Part shown: positions 18,943-23,942 of the stretch, one piece after another
Position numbering within the stretch: position 1 is the stretch's first letter
Layout of the letters: every line of letters starts with the position of its first letter
From: Corynebacterium atypicum
GTDB taxonomy: Bacteria > Actinomycetota > Actinomycetes > Mycobacteriales > Mycobacteriaceae
Assembly (NCBI RefSeq): GCF_000732945.1
Contig: NZ_CP008944.1
Coordinates: 2,030,767-2,094,766 of the forward strand
Reading direction: 5' to 3'
Length of the DNA: 64,000 nt
Notes under the pieces: generated by a model
Databases searched by the model: none
Told to the model about the DNA's origin: nothing
Seen by the model: the letters and a program-made list of their open reading frames with translations, nothing else
Position numbers and translations under genes: made by a program

Positions 18943-19854
18943 ATGCGTGTGCTCATCCTGCGCTGCGGCGCGGCAGCCAATGCCCTCGATCTGCGCCTGG
19001 ACCAGCTTGGAGCAGGGGCGGCGGCTGAGCTCAGCACCGTGCAGCTCGACCTCGCACCGAGCCGACGCGACCTGCGTTTCTTAGACTCCGCCGCGGCAGC
19101 AGCCCTGCCCGAGGACCCCACGCCGAGCCTCGACGAGATCGCCGCGCAACCCGACGTCGCCCATCTCGGAGCACCCCAGCCAGCCCCGCAGGAGCCATAC
19201 CTGCGCCAGCGGCTCCGAGTGGTGGTCGTGGGCACAGACGCCTCACTTTCTGCAGTGCTCACCCGCGCCATGCGCGCCGACTACCTCTGGGCGGAGTTCG
19301 CCTTCGTGCCCGTCGAGCCCACACCGGCTGCCGCCAACTGGGGGATACCGATCGGCCGGGCTGCGCTGCCGCTGGCGCTGCACGGGGAGGTTCGTCCGGC
19401 GCCGCTGATCCGCTCTGACCGGGGCATTGCCGTAGCGGGATCCGCGCTTATTGAAGAGGCCGACGGGCGCGAGTTTATCGGCGAGATCGTTGTAGACGAC
19501 GCGACGATCCTGTTCCGCCGGGGCGACAACGCCGCGCCCGCTGGCGGCTCGGCGGCGCCCCGCACGGGGGCGTTTGGCGCTCGGCTCGTGCCCATGCCGA
19601 CTGCCCCGGGCATCGCGGCGGCACCCTTGACCACGCCCGCGCGCCCTCCGGAAGGCGGCAGCCTGCGTGCGCGCTGGCTGCGGGCAACGAGAGCGTATGG
19701 CCAGGTAGACGAGGCTGGTCTGGCGACGGGGCGCGCGGTTCAGGCAGGAGGGCGCGGCATACTCATTACTATCGACGCCGTCCCCGCCCCCCGTCCCGTC
19801 AAGCGCGCGACGTTCTACCGGCACCTGCGCGACCTGCAAATCGTGCGCCCCTAG
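18943..19854 (+). CDS. Conserved hypothetical protein next to purA
   Basis: A 303-residue protein without signal peptide or membrane segment. The N-terminal MRVLILRCGAAANALDLRL and a later strand-loop LRVVVVGTDASLSAVLTRAM look like nucleotide-binding alpha/beta structure, reminiscent of diacylglycerol/NAD-kinase-like proteins, but no diagnostic motif was recognised. The C-terminal 40 residues (KRATFYRHLRDLQIV) are basic. A gene of this kind sits opposite purA in other corynebacteria. The function is unknown. The start is supported by the -10 element 7 nt upstream. Confidence 0.75.
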   Translation: MRVLILRCGAAANALDLRLDQLGAGAAAELSTVQLDLAPSRRDLRFLDSAAAAALPEDPTPSLDEIAAQPDVAHLGAPQPAPQEPYLRQRLRVVVVGTDASLSAVLTRAMRADYLWAEFAFVPVEPTPAAANWGIPIGRAALPLALHGEVRPAPLIRSDRGIAVAGSALIEEADGREFIGEIVVDDATILFRRGDNAAPAGGSAAPRTGAFGARLVPMPTAPGIAAAPLTTPARPPEGGSLRARWLRATRAYGQVDEAGLATGRAVQAGGRGILITIDAVPAPRPVKRATFYRHLRDLQIVRP

Positions 19855-19910
19855 CCGCGCCGTCGTGCGCCTAGCCCCGTCGTCGTGCGCCTAGCTGCGC
19901 CGTCGTACGC
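19841..19910. repeat. Tandem 20-bp repeat of the preceding gene's 3' end
   Basis: The octamer TCGTGCGC (last copy TCGTACGC) starts at 19841, 19863, 19883 and 19903. The last three are exactly 20 bp apart, and each complete unit contains CTAG. The first unit holds the stop codon of the upstream gene, so the array looks like duplicated copies of that gene end. Confidence 0.6.
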
Positions 19911-19918
19911 ACCCCGAA

Positions 19919-20011
19919 TTACGCGTCGCCCTGCGGCTGCCTGACCTCCTGCATAGCTTTTTCATTGCGCGCTTTCCGGCGCGCAATCGCAGGCGGTGTC
20001 ACGGAGGTCGA
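19919..20011 (-). CDS. Possible 30-residue basic peptide
   Basis: ATG at 20011 is preceded by a G-rich TTAGGGGG. It opens a short Lys/Arg-rich frame (IARRKARNEKAMQEVR) ending at 19919. No family was recognised. The first codons overlap one arm of the 19997-20085 inverted repeat. It may be a chance frame in a decayed region. Confidence 0.25.
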   Translation of the reverse strand, partial: STSVTPPAIARRKARNEKAMQEVRQPQGDA

Positions 20012-20085
20012 CATAGTTGGCCCCCTAATTCGCGTTTTCCCAGGTCGCTTTTCTTGTTCGCACGACGGTGTCGACCTCTGTGACA
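19997..20085. repeat. Imperfect 17-bp inverted repeat
   Basis: TGTCACGGAGGTCGACA at 19997-20013 pairs with the complement of 20069-20085, with one mismatch and a 55-bp spacer. It resembles the ends of a small mobile or excised element, or a regulatory pair. No transposase is present. Confidence 0.4.
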
Positions 20086-20219
20086 GTTCCGAGGGCGCTA
20101 GGGCCCGTTGGCGAAGCGATCGCAGCAGGAAAGCCCAAGGGCGCAGGGCGCGCTCCAGGGCTTGTCTGGGGATCTTCACCTCGAAGGGGCTCGAGACCGA
20201 AGGCTTGGGCCGTTCATTG

Positions 20220-20465
20220 TTAGAGGAACGGGATCATGGCCATGATCTCGGGCGGGAGGGTGATGAAGCCCAGGTTGAAGGCCGCGAAGAAGGCCGCAAT
20301 CAAGGCAACGACTCCGCCAATCACGCCACCGAGCAAGCCAGAGCCGACGTTCTTGCCCACATCGGAATTATCGTTGTCCCCATCCTCGCCCGGCTTGGGC
20401 TTGTTGGGACTCGACGTCGTGGTTTCGACCGTCTACGTTTCGACTGTCGTCTTTACGGCCCTCAT
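20220..20465 (-). pseudogene. Remnant of a surface protein C-terminal anchor
   Basis: Starting one codon after the dehydrogenase stop, the reverse strand reads 10 codons (ATG at 20465, ending TTVET), an amber codon at 20433-20435, then 70 further codons to a TAA at 20220. The readable part is a Thr-rich stalk (TVETTTSSPN), a Pro/Lys/Asp linker (KPKPGEDGDNDNSD) and a Gly/Ala hydrophobic anchor (NVGSGLLGGVIGGVVALIAA, then FFAAFNLGF). Corynebacterial cell-envelope proteins without LPXTG end in this way. The rest of the gene is missing. The stretch between 20085 and 20220 holds nothing recognisable. Confidence 0.6.
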
Positions 20466-21626
20466 TTAGTCCCGGTGCCACACGTCGCGCGTCCACACCT
20501 TCGCACGGACATCAGACAACTGCGGCGAGGTCCGATTGCACAGGATGATATCCGCCTGAGACTTAAACTCACGCAGATCATCGACCATTTCACAACCGGC
20601 AACTGCGCCTTGATACCCCGGGTCAAAGACGATGACCCGCACCCCACCTTGCCTTATCCGAGCAATCACGTCCAATACCGAGGACGACCGAGCGTTATCC
20701 GAGCCCGCCTTCATGGCCAGCTTAAACACGCCCACGCACTGCAGATTTTCCGCCAGCACTGCATCTGCAATAAACCTCTTGCGCAGGCGATTCGACTCAA
20801 CGATGGCCGCCATCAGCGACTGCGGCACGTCACTGTAGTTGGCTAGCAGCTGCCGAGTGTCCTTTGGCAGGCAGTAACCGCCGTAGCCGAAGCTGGGATT
20901 GTTGTAGTAATCGCCGATACGCGGATCCAAGCTGACCCCACGGATGATCCCCGCCGCGTCCAGCCCCTGTTTCATGGCGAAGGTGTCCAGCTCGTTGAAA
21001 AACGCCACCCGCATCGCCAGGTAGGTGTTAGAAAAGAGCTTCACTGCCTCAGCCTCTGTCGCGGCGCACTCCACCAGCGGGCAGTCCACTTCGGCTGCAG
21101 CGACCAGGAGCCGACCAAACCTAGGGCCGGCTGGGGTCTCCGCCGAGACGATCACCCGGGCCGGCCTCAGGTTATCGGCCAGCGCATGCCCTTCACGCAG
21201 GAATTCCGGCGAAAAGTGGATCTCAAGATTCGGGTACCGGTGCCGCATCCTCTCAGTAAAACCCACCGGCACGGTCGATTTGATAATCACAGCAGTCTGC
21301 GGGCTGATCCGATCAACCTGAGCCAGCACCTGCTCGACAGAGGAGGTATCAAAGCAGTTCGTCTCCTCGTCGTAATTCGTCGGAGTAGCGATCACCGCGT
21401 AGTCGCTGCCCATAAGCACCCCGTGCGGTGCGGTCGCCACCGTCACCGGCCAGTGGCCATCGGCTAGGGCTGACTCGATCTGCTGATCAGCAAACGGGCT
21501 TTCCCCCCGAGCTATTTGTTCGACGCGCTCTCGATCGAGATCGACCGCGCTGACCTCATGGTCGCGGGCCAGTAACAGGGCGTTAGCAAGGCCGACATAG
21601 CCCAACCCAAATACCGTGATCTTCAT
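20466..21626 (-). CDS. ugd: UDP-glucose 6-dehydrogenase
   Basis: Oxidises UDP-glucose to UDP-glucuronate with two NAD+, supplying sugar for envelope or capsule polysaccharide. It has 386 residues. The NAD loop GLGYVGLANALLLARDHEV is at the start; also present are IIKSTVPVGFT, FSPEFLREG and the catalytic cysteine in FGYGGYCLPKDT. The ATG at 21626 begins MKITVFGLGYVG; the longer frame to 21695 adds residues without family support. No glycosyltransferase neighbours are present. The following sequence is a surface-protein remnant, so the locus has been rearranged. Confidence 0.93.
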   Translation of the reverse strand: MKITVFGLGYVGLANALLLARDHEVSAVDLDRERVEQIARGESPFADQQIESALADGHWPVTVATAPHGVLMGSDYAVIATPTNYDEETNCFDTSSVEQVLAQVDRISPQTAVIIKSTVPVGFTERMRHRYPNLEIHFSPEFLREGHALADNLRPARVIVSAETPAGPRFGRLLVAAAEVDCPLVECAATEAEAVKLFSNTYLAMRVAFFNELDTFAMKQGLDAAGIIRGVSLDPRIGDYYNNPSFGYGGYCLPKDTRQLLANYSDVPQSLMAAIVESNRLRKRFIADAVLAENLQCVGVFKLAMKAGSDNARSSSVLDVIARIRQGGVRVIVFDPGYQGAVAGCEMVDDLREFKSQADIILCNRTSPQLSDVRAKVWTRDVWHRD

Positions 21627-22142
21627 GCTTAGCCTGCCTTCAGTCGCCCGTTCCCTCAAGATCGGCACCTCCGGGCGCCACAGGACACAGCCCACCCGGG
21701 TGCAAAAATTACCTACCCTGGCTCATCGTCGCACAGATCCCACCGGTGCGCAGTGCAAGTCTTTACCCGAAGAATCTCCCAACGCTAAGCACTTGCAGGC
21801 CTGCAGCGTCCACACCAGTACAACTACCCATCACCAATATCCGACGTACGCGACTGCTCTTGAAGCTCACACAGTACGCAGCCGGTAGCTCATTCGATCC
21901 TAGAGCCACACAGGCATGAACTCTGCCAGGCCACAATATGTTTTATCACCAACGGGCCACACAACGCCGGGGTGGCCCTAACCATTACACATGGTCGTCC
22001 CGCCACAGATTTTCATCACGACATAATAAGAGGGCCCTACAGTTCTGATAAACACTAGGCTAGACAACCTCCAGATCTCTTAAATTTAATACTTTATGCC
22101 CTTCCTAGCGGACTTAACTTATCTCAAATACTCCCATATTTG
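21627..22142. other. Non-coding, increasingly AT-rich stretch
   Basis: No convincing gene was seen in these roughly 500 bases. Composition drops from typical high GC near 21650 to distinctly AT-rich beyond about 21900, unlike the rest of the window, which suggests acquired DNA. A 7-bp inverted repeat (GGGCCAC at 21954-21960, GTGGCCC at 21972-21978) is present. The ugd promoter should lie at the left end. Confidence 0.6.
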
Positions 22143-22170
22143 GGTGATATTTTGAATATAACATATCACC
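22143..22170. promoter_or_regulatory. Palindrome upstream of the small-peptide promoter
   Basis: GGTGATAT at 22143-22150 and ATATCACC at 22163-22170 form a perfect 8-bp inverted repeat with a 12-bp AT-rich centre. It ends 13 bp before a TTGACA -35 hexamer, so it is well placed for an activator or repressor of the peptide cassette. Confidence 0.5.
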
Positions 22171-22183
22171 ATACCAAAAACCA

Positions 22184-22213
22184 TTGACAGGTAAAATTCA
22201 AAAATAATTTAAT
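22184..22213 (+). promoter_or_regulatory. Strong SigA-type promoter of the peptide cassette
   Basis: A perfect TTGACA (22184-22189), an 18-bp spacer and TTTAAT (22208-22213, 5 of 6 to TATAAT) lie in AT-rich DNA. Transcription would begin near 22220, giving a leader of about 85 nt before the peptide start. Confidence 0.65.
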
Positions 22214-22260
22214 AAATGTCCACCAAGCCTACTTGAACCGAAGGTTATCATGCGGAAAAA

Positions 22261-22293
22261 CTCAAGGCATTTCTCGCCTTGAGGGGGGGGAGG
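22261..22293 (+). promoter_or_regulatory. Leader hairpin joined to a G-rich ribosome binding site
   Basis: CTCAAGGC and GCCTTGAG form a perfect 8-bp stem with a 7-nt loop (22261-22283). The stem runs straight into a G8 tract (22283-22290) followed by AGG, which is the only Shine-Dalgarno-like sequence before the peptide. The arrangement could modulate ribosome access. The G8 tract is also slippage-prone. Confidence 0.5.
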
Positions 22294-22305
22294 CATCGAC
22301 ATGGA

Positions 22306-22461
22306 ATGGGAATTGCCTCATGGGCGATCACGGCACTGAGCTTAGCTTGTGGCGCAGCATGCGCTGCAACCGCTGGTGCCGGCTGCGCCGCCTGCATTGC
22401 CGCCGCAGCGGGTGCCACCGGTGGAGTAGTTACGGCTTGCGTCAAACAAAATTGGAAGTGA
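22306..22461 (+). CDS. Cysteine/alanine-rich small peptide, candidate bacteriocin
   Basis: A 51-residue peptide with 18 Ala, 7 Gly and five Cys at positions 15, 19, 27, 30 and 45. It ends with the basic, aromatic tail VKQNWK. The middle is hydrophobic enough to enter membranes. The Cys-rich Ala/Gly pattern recalls halocin C8-like and other actinobacterial bacteriocin domains, but an odd Cys count and the absence of an obvious leader peptide are unlike the classic cases. ATG at 22306 lies 12 nt after the G-rich ribosome binding site. Another ATG at 22301, better spaced, opens a 12-codon frame that overlaps it. A strong promoter, palindrome and hairpin precede it, and a small membrane protein follows 5 nt later. 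The gene is probably real; its function is inferred. Confidence 0.55.
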   Translation: MGIASWAITALSLACGAACAATAGAGCAACIAAAAGATGGVVTACVKQNWK

Positions 22462-22466
22462 TAGAC

Positions 22467-22817
22467 ATGGACTACAAGAAAATGTCAGGTGCCTCTTTCA
22501 TAGCAGGGGGACTTGTGATCCTCCTGGGTACCACCTCAAACATCGGCAACTGGTCTGCAATTGCAGGGTGGTCTATAGGGATAATCCTGTTCGTGCTTGC
22601 CGGCATCTTCGCGCTGAAAGCGCATGATGCCCCCAAAAAACTAAACGCCCCCCCCAAAACGCACCGCCTGCCCGCTACCCCCGCCGGGCCACACAACACA
22701 GCCCAGCGGGAATGGACACTCTGCGGCCACACTCTATGCGTCGTCGGCGTCGCGGCCTTTTTCGTCGCCATCCCAAACCTCCGGCGGGTAGGCCGGGGTC
22801 TGCGAGGTTGGCGATAG
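22467..22817 (+). CDS. Small membrane protein, candidate immunity partner
   Basis: A 116-residue protein starting at ATG 22467, five bases after the peptide stop, so translation is probably coupled. Two clear membrane segments lie near residues 8-22 (GASFIAGGLVILLG) and 30-50 (WSAIAGWSIGIILFVLAGIF). A polar Pro/Lys linker follows, then a weaker hydrophobic stretch (CVVGVAAFFVAI). Size and topology fit bacteriocin immunity proteins. The last 84 nt run antisense into the FUSC gene, so the C-terminus may be an artefact of a join that removed the original stop. No family was recognised. Confidence 0.5.
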   Translation: MDYKKMSGASFIAGGLVILLGTTSNIGNWSAIAGWSIGIILFVLAGIFALKAHDAPKKLNAPPKTHRLPATPAGPHNTAQREWTLCGHTLCVVGVAAFFVAIPNLRRVGRGLRGWR

Positions 22818-23942
22818 CACCGCGAGCGAAGAGGCCCGGGACATGCCACAGATCTGCAACAGATCGACAATGATGGATCGCGTCTGAGCAAGAACCACAT
22901 GCGCGGAGAGCACCCGACCTTCTACCAGGGACATGTCGGCACGCGAGCCCAGACGGCGCAGCTGGTTGACCATCTGCGGGATTTCGATCGCCTCGGAGAT
23001 CTCCGCGCCGCGTTCGTAGAGCTCGGAGAAGGTCAGCAGGATGCCCGCAAGCTCCTCGATGATCTCGATCTGCTCGTCGGCGACAGTGTCACCATCCTCG
23101 GTGAGCACCCGAGAGCGCCGCGCCAGCACCCGAACGTTGCGCACCGCGTTATCCACAGGGCCGAGGATGCGTTCCAGCGAGCGCACCCTGCTGCGGGAGG
23201 TCCAAAACAGCGGCGAGATTGTCGACGCCTCGCGGCCCACCTTCGCAGAATCCAGCATCGAGTTGATGTCACCTTGCGTATCGCGCACGGCCTGGAGCGC
23301 ATTGGCAAGCCCGCGTGCGTCGCGGCGCTGTAAAGCATTAGCGACGTCGTCGAGGACCGACGATGCGATCGCCATCACCTTCGAGATTTCCTGGCGCCCG
23401 GCGCTTAAGGGGTTATCAGGAATGATCGCGATGACCAAGATTCCTACAGTGGATCCGATCACGGCGTCCATCATGCGCTCCGGCCCACCAGTCCCCCCGG
23501 GCGAGACCATTCCCGGCGGCATAATCGTGGCGATAAGAATTGCGCCGATGGCGATCTGGTTATTCACCAACTGCGACTTAGATAGAAACGAGCCGAAGAG
23601 CAGCGCGATAGCCACCGCCACGGCGATTTGCCAGGGCCCGGAGCCCAGAAGCGGAACGATCAAGTCCCCCAGGCCCACTCCCACGATGCAGCCCAGGGAC
23701 ATTTCGACGGCGCGGCGCAGGCGATCACCGCCCGTCATGCCCAAGATGATCACGGCCGCGATCGGCGCGAAGAACGGGTACTGGTGGCCGAAGATGTGCT
23801 GGGCTACCCAGTATGCCGCCCCCGCCGCGACTGCCTGCTGAGTGATCGCCCAGGAGCGTTTTTTCACCCTCCCCCAGCGGCTGCCCAGACTCTTGTCTAC
23901 TGTGCGCAGCCGCTCGAGTGTGTTAAGACGTTCTTTCGCCAT
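22734..23942 (-). CDS. FUSC-family membrane transporter
   Basis: A 402-residue inner-membrane protein of the FUSC/aromatic-acid-exporter-like family. A basic N-terminus is followed by about six hydrophobic segments (AVAAGAAYWVAQHIFG, FFAPIAAVIILGMTGGDRLR, MSLGCIVGVGLGDLIVPLLG, IAVAVAIALLFGSFL, IAIGAILIATIMPPGM, VIGSTVGILVIAIIP). The FUSC core GGDRLRRAVEMSLGCIVGVG is clear. The C-terminal half is a cytosolic helical domain. The substrate is unknown; relatives export organic acids or dyes. The start is ATG at 23942. A perfect palindrome lies 80 bp upstream. Confidence 0.85.
   Translation of the reverse strand: MAKERLNTLERLRTVDKSLGSRWGRVKKRSWAITQQAVAAGAAYWVAQHIFGHQYPFFAPIAAVIILGMTGGDRLRRAVEMSLGCIVGVGLGDLIVPLLGSGPWQIAVAVAIALLFGSFLSKSQLVNNQIAIGAILIATIMPPGMVSPGGTGGPERMMDAVIGSTVGILVIAIIPDNPLSAGRQEISKVMAIASSVLDDVANALQRRDARGLANALQAVRDTQGDINSMLDSAKVGREASTISPLFWTSRSRVRSLERILGPVDNAVRNVRVLARRSRVLTEDGDTVADEQIEIIEELAGILLTFSELYERGAEISEAIEIPQMVNQLRRLGSRADMSLVEGRVLSAHVVLAQTRSIIVDLLQICGMSRASSLAVLSPTSQTPAYPPEVWDGDEKGRDADDA

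Follow-up and report, generated by a model that had tools for sequence, protein, structure and literature searches.

A 5′-truncated copy of an unmodelled six-cysteine, bacteriocin-like precursor gene beside a probable immunity gene in Corynebacterium atypicum

The 64,000-nucleotide stretch of Corynebacterium atypicum DNA analyzed here (the window) comes from a two-contig genome of 2.36 Mb and carries a genuine, though truncated, member of an unrecognized halocin C8-like precursor family, a locus most likely kept for immunity. ORF1 is probably what remains, at the 3′ end, of a gene for a secreted bacteriocin precursor, and the adjoining ORF2 is most likely the retained immunity gene (Table 1). 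The bacteriocin and membrane immunity cassette of the original prediction agrees with the relatives, which encode secreted precursors and have an ORF with two transmembrane (TM) segments directly beside the family gene in 16 of the 23 loci examined, the window included, but ORF1 itself is incomplete.

Table 1. Features of the insertion and its flanks, in coordinates of the window
Feature	Position	Strand	Basis or detail
303-aa gene, left flank of the insertion	18943–19854	+	comparison with G048
Insertion, about 2.9 kb	19854–22770		blastn of the window against L058
70-aa stump, C-terminal tail of larger corynebacterial proteins	20223–20432	−	resemblance
Nucleotide-sugar dehydrogenase (ugd type), insertion cargo	20466–21695	−	TIGR03026, Pfam UDPG_MGDP_dh domains
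Inverted repeat, possible operator	22143–22170		GGTGATAT-12-ATATCACC
Promoter-like TTGACA-18-TTTAAT	TTGACA 22184–22189, TTTAAT 22208–22213	+	sequence reading
Intrinsic-terminator-like hairpin, then TTTTT	22261–22283	−	9 pairs
G8 tract (22283–22290) then AGG, SD-like	22283–22293	+	sequence reading
ORF1, C-terminal (mature) domain, 5′-truncated	22306–22461	+	profile match, alignment
ORF2, whole	22467–22817	+	116 aa, begins 5 nt after ORF1
ORF2 core, small two-TM protein, likely immunity	22467–22646	+	hydropathy, P0001/P0002, neighbors in relatives
ORF2 tail past the start of the C8 tract	22647–22817	+	frame differs in P0001/P0002
FUSC-family membrane protein, chromosomal flank	22734–23942	−	Pfam FUSC_2, E = 4e-23

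ORF1 encodes the predicted peptide of 51 residues with five cysteines, spaced by 3, 7, 2, and 14. A direct protein search with this peptide found nothing, while comparison with NCBIfam gave no match and comparison with Pfam a single weak, sub-threshold match, YbgS. A six-frame search of 151 genomes of the genus detected similar sequences in G082 (67% identity), G023 (56%), G085 (54%), and G097 (54%), together with a weaker match in G135 (41%); many others were at chance level. The matches in G082, G085, and G097 correspond to the last 46–50 residues of longer proteins, in which the ORF1-like domain follows a hydrophobic N-terminal signal and a pro-region. Against the profile of the relatives, ORF1 scored 73.9 bits, with E = 2.3e-20 when the window row was included in the profile and 4.5e-22 when it was left out. 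The best shuffled controls reached 14.3 bits (1000 shuffles with the cysteines fixed) and 6.9 bits (1000 full shuffles), so the match is not an effect of composition. The peptide corresponds in sequence to the C-terminal domain of the family, which runs from the GIASW motif through the six-cysteine region. Over 50 codons, comparison with six relatives yielded dN values of 0.26–0.50 and dS values of 1.3–2.9. dN lies well below dS, so selection acted on the protein sequence of the domain through most of its past; because dS is near saturation, the evidence is limited to past constraint. The reading frame is still open across the 50 homologous codons, suggesting that the decay is recent or that the piece is still in use.

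The precursors of the family are mostly 216–260 residues long and comprise a signal peptide, a pro-domain, and a hydrophobic C-terminal domain with six cysteines. In an AlphaFold2 model of the precursor, the pro-domain is a confidently predicted α/β fold and the C-terminal domain has four helices at lower confidence; fold comparison with this model gave no reliable match. A profile search of the genus returned 15 of 242 genomes at E ≤ 0.01. Two of them (G158 and G025), with E values of 0.006–0.008 in other regions of the profile, were dropped as likely chance matches, which leaves 13 of the 242 Corynebacterium genomes with the precursor family, that of the window included. Among the best 7996 word-sharing candidates from 5.8 billion sequences, the profile recovered 15 protein relatives, none of which has a precomputed Pfam domain, and the three with displayed names are called "hypothetical protein"; the corynebacteria named among these matches include C. 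glucuronolyticum and C. mastitidis. The family also occurs in Brevibacterium, Actinotalea, Planomicrobium (two species), Streptomyces, and Bacillus plasmids. With the Planomicrobium copy as the query, ten plasmid records were found at E ≤ 1 (seven from Bacillus and one each from Terribacillus, Streptomyces, and Levilactobacillus), six of them at E ≤ 2e-4 and four at 0.02–0.07. The B. subtilis plasmid copy (L072) matches weakly in this plasmid search (E 0.07), yet reaches 59 bits against the precursor profile and contains all six cysteines. The range of the family extends from corynebacteria to small Bacillus plasmids, across Actinomycetota and Bacilli, and its peptides, if active, would be candidate narrow-spectrum antimicrobials. 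In pFL5, a small Bacillus licheniformis plasmid (L068, 2023–3684), genes for a thioredoxin-family protein and a disulfide oxidoreductase lie immediately 5′ of the precursor gene, an arrangement that supports a disulfide-bonded product.

The pattern of the peptide was originally said to recall halocin C8-like domains. No family member scanned reached a Pfam or NCBIfam cut-off (the plasmid copies were compared with NCBIfam only), and the bacteriocin-like family is accordingly recognized by none of the searched models; all matches to the halocin C8-type models stayed below their cut-offs. TIGR04449 (halocin_C8_dom, cut-off 24 bits) had no match in the genome of the window at E ≤ 10 and was absent from the matches of the 18 A3 family members at E ≤ 0.1. 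The best score with TIGR04450 (Gpos_C8_like, cut-off 27 bits) was 13.2 bits, obtained by the Streptomyces copy L070 (E 0.051), and the B. pumilus copy L067 also matched this model below threshold (E 1.8). NF040679 (cut-off 200 bits) was matched at 18.7 bits by the Planomicrobium copy L034 (E 0.001), co-linearly with positions 90–227 on 96–228, and below threshold by P0007 (E 0.42). Unrelated families attained E values of about 0.001–0.01 in the same scans, such as 0.00093 for an anti-sigma factor model; a single E value is therefore no proof, and the weight rests on the repeated co-linear target, as all four of these members align co-linearly with halocin C8-type models. This recurrence lends weak support to describing the family as halocin C8-like in architecture, without assigning it to the halocin C8 group. 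The family resembles TIGR04450 ("putative immunity/bacteriocin fusion", Gram-positive) and NF040679 ("halocin C8 precursor-like") in length (240–243 positions), and the sub-threshold matches span the pro-domain and/or the C-terminal domain, whereas the present family has six cysteines at fixed spacing and often a separate adjoining two-TM ORF. As in the haloarchaeal halocin C8, a hydrophobic, cysteine-rich peptide ends a longer precursor, but halocin C8 has ten cysteines rather than six. The title of Sun et al. (2005) reports a single gene for both the production of halocin C8 and immunity to it. The Bacillus SDP toxin (SdpC) and sublancin-type peptides, which derive from a secreted precursor, contain disulfides, and are accompanied by a membrane immunity protein, resemble our reading of the family in these respects but differ in their cysteine pattern. 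No SDP or sublancin-type model was among the listed Pfam and NCBIfam matches of family members.

ORF1 lacks the 5′ part of such a gene. In an alignment of 18 rows, the first cysteine, within NxCLSxAGIASW, is present in all 17 rows other than that of the window, and all six cysteines are present in 14 of the 17, the exceptions being P0012 (five), P0017 (four), and L007/G135 (four). ORF1 has the last five of the six conserved cysteines, and the first is absent. Its homology sets in with the second codon (22309), where the conserved GIASW motif starts, and continues without gaps across the entire mature domain. At the DNA level, similarity to G155 and G082 starts at the same position, and none of the foreign DNA matches listed (two candidates per genome scored) falls in the 289 upstream bases included in the query. 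Across the six frames of 19801–22800, an HMM built without the window row detected no remnant of the pro-region, with the next best frame at 2.0 bits, and no signal peptide with a pro-domain was found ahead of the domain. On these alignments, ORF1 is evidently a 5′-truncated copy without the signal peptide, pro-domain, and first cysteine. The odd number of cysteines and the lack of a clear leader, both correctly noted before, are the marks of this truncation.

The locus lies in an insertion. In the comparison of the window with L058, homology stops at 19853 and resumes at 22771, and in the close relative G048 the FUSC gene and a gene of 293 aa are directly adjacent, without the insertion. The FUSC protein of the window is 88% identical to that of G048. 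Since this homology begins at 22771, the end of ORF2 (22771–22817) is antisense to conserved FUSC, whereas the C-terminal residues of FUSC (22734–22770) derive from the insertion. The convergent FUSC exporter does end inside ORF2, as originally described, but it is a chromosomal flank at the insertion border. The dehydrogenase carried by the insertion scores 296.8 bits with TIGR03026, against a cut-off of 189.8. No homolog of FUSC or of the dehydrogenase is present in the 12.7-kb locus of the G082 copy, indicating that the cassette is not tied to the site seen in the window. The 70-aa stump, which adjoins the ugd-type gene and is a second gene fragment within the insertion, has matches in 16 of 151 genomes (its own included) at E ≤ 1e-3, where the open frames elsewhere span 211–1311 aa.

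The sequence signals ahead of ORF1 are partly as first described. The palindrome is present, and a pattern search located it at a single place in the genome, with none for the reversed-pattern control. Both hexamers of the near-consensus promoter and its 18-nt spacer are also present, but a consensus scan of 19850–22800, which returned one promoter-like site against 1.1 expected, did not call it, because the −10 hexamer, TTTAAT, does not have the consensus A as its second base. The surrounding region is only 37–39% GC, so the promoter is weaker evidence than was claimed. The AT-rich islet comprises only the upstream ~250 bp; ORF1 (61.5% GC) and ORF2 (59.5%) are themselves near 60%. The hairpin on the minus strand has the longest stem among the six sites detected (2.5 expected). 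It is located in the ORF1 leader, about 450 nt past the FUSC stop codon, and may form the end of the FUSC transcript, which could then cross both ORFs in antisense. The SD-like GGAGG (22289–22293) is well spaced for an ATG at 22301 but lies 12 nt from the ORF1 ATG at 22306; the frame from 22301 is not that of ORF1 and meets a stop after 12 codons. The codons of P0002 would imply a G run shorter than the G8 of the window.

ORF2, the predicted small protein with two membrane segments that follows the peptide, is present as described and is preceded by its own SD-like sequence. The two segments are contained in residues 1–60, and a third hydrophobic stretch (about 22722–22772) coincides in part with the end of the FUSC ORF, which is encoded on the opposite strand. 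In the near-identical proteins P0001 and P0002, the membrane part is identical and the frame shifts after the C8 tract; the ORF2 tail is probably foreign to the original protein. Their codons imply different C-tract lengths, which may stem from strain variation or sequencing error. Both homopolymers, G8 and C8 (22648–22655), seem to differ in length in P0001 and P0002 and are possible slippage sites or sequencing errors. Homology searches with ORF2 gave no convincing homolog beyond near-identical sequences, and the immunity candidates were identified from their position and hydropathy rather than from sequence homology. Directly downstream of the family gene, 12 of the 23 loci, counting ORF2 in the window, have an ORF with two hydrophobic segments, while in the divergent Corynebacterium subgroup a two-TM ORF lies directly upstream in four of five (G177, G211, G183, and G098). 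Upstream placement was noted at loci L042, L043, L044, and L046. By the criteria applied, the seven loci without an ORF of two clear segments are those of Actinotalea, B. pumilus, B. licheniformis, B. subtilis, Streptomyces, G229, and G135. One clear segment is found in the upstream ORF of G135 and in the downstream ORF of G229, a small ORF upstream of the Streptomyces copy looks membrane-like by eye, and the B. pumilus sequence record stops right at the neighbor position.

The N-terminal part is absent in all frames from five copies, namely those of the window, G023, G155, Planomicrobium L035 (profile from position 158), and B. subtilis plasmid L072 (from 116). The two-TM ORF is kept in four of the five, or three of the four besides the window. 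Among the 13 copies of the genus, the window and G023 retain the C-terminal domain alone; G023 has a frame break at the domain start, and we did not take a weak 9.7-bit profile match of its upstream ORF for a remnant of the N-terminal part. In G155, roughly the first 95 positions of the profile are missing and the frame is broken as well. Four further copies contain an internal stop (G135, G177, G211, and G098), two have the signal region in another frame or unclear (G229 and G183), and no interruption is seen in G082, G085, G097, and the divergent G144. By locus, the Corynebacterium copies with stops or frame breaks, in part close to the region of the signal peptide, are L039, L040, L042, L043, L044, L045, and L046. 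The breaks in relatives may reflect decay or switching, or draft-assembly errors may inflate their number.

We propose that the relatives produce a preprotein composed of a signal peptide, a folded α/β pro-domain, and the six-cysteine hydrophobic C-terminal domain. After export, the C-terminal domain would probably be released, form three disulfide cross-links, and enter the membranes of competitors, with the small two-TM protein encoded alongside protecting the producer. In C. atypicum, a deletion or recombination in the 2.9-kb insertion would have removed the signal peptide, pro-domain, and first cysteine, leaving the cell probably unable to make or export the bacteriocin. ORF2, with its two membrane segments, SD-like sequence, and upstream promoter-like sequence, has most likely been kept as immunity against relatives that still make the peptide. 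As ORF1 is without an export signal and is one cysteine short of the full set of three disulfides, an inactive stump beside a kept immunity gene is the best reading. Such pairs of an eroded toxin and a kept immunity gene would represent naturally occurring orphan immunity, open to testing of one strain against another.

It is unlikely, though worth weighing, that ORF1 and ORF2 are both non-functional debris, neither expressed nor selected. The second C-terminal stump within the insertion, the unstable frame of the ORF2 tail, and the breaks in several relatives point in this direction, but ORF2 has an intact membrane part, which P0001 and P0002 share unchanged, and two-TM genes persist beside eroded toxins in other lineages. 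Rather improbable is a complete, leaderless bacteriocin, in which the 51-residue peptide would be made and exported despite having no signal peptide, and ORF2 would confer immunity to it. Leaderless bacteriocins exist, and ORF1 is open, begins exactly at GIASW, and aligns over the mature domain without gaps; against this, the loss of a cysteine found in every other aligned row leaves one cysteine unpaired, the best-spaced start codon is out of frame, and a dedicated exporter is not among the adjacent genes. Finally, an intracellular toxin–antitoxin or membrane-stress module derived from a bacteriocin is very doubtful, since, although the two small ORFs lie 5 nt apart behind one promoter-like sequence and an inverted repeat, and N-terminally eroded copies occur in five species of three genera with the neighbor kept in four, these copies differ in their breakpoints and in G023 and G155 the frame is also broken within or at the domain, which looks like decay and not repurposing. 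We give equally little credence to the extended proposal that this unmodelled six-cysteine family repeatedly loses the toxin 5′ end while immunity survives, and that the leftover domain in the window, made intracellularly and checked by ORF2, would be a step from a bacteriocin to a toxin–antitoxin pair.

Two loci outside Corynebacterium have further neighbors or copies. In Brevibacterium (L033, 5575–7328), two diverged precursor genes are arranged in tandem and are followed by one two-TM gene. In Planomicrobium (L035, 4654–6381), the 5′-eroded copy is accompanied by an intact two-TM gene and, nearby, by a gene labelled macro-domain-like, which we take to resemble DarG.
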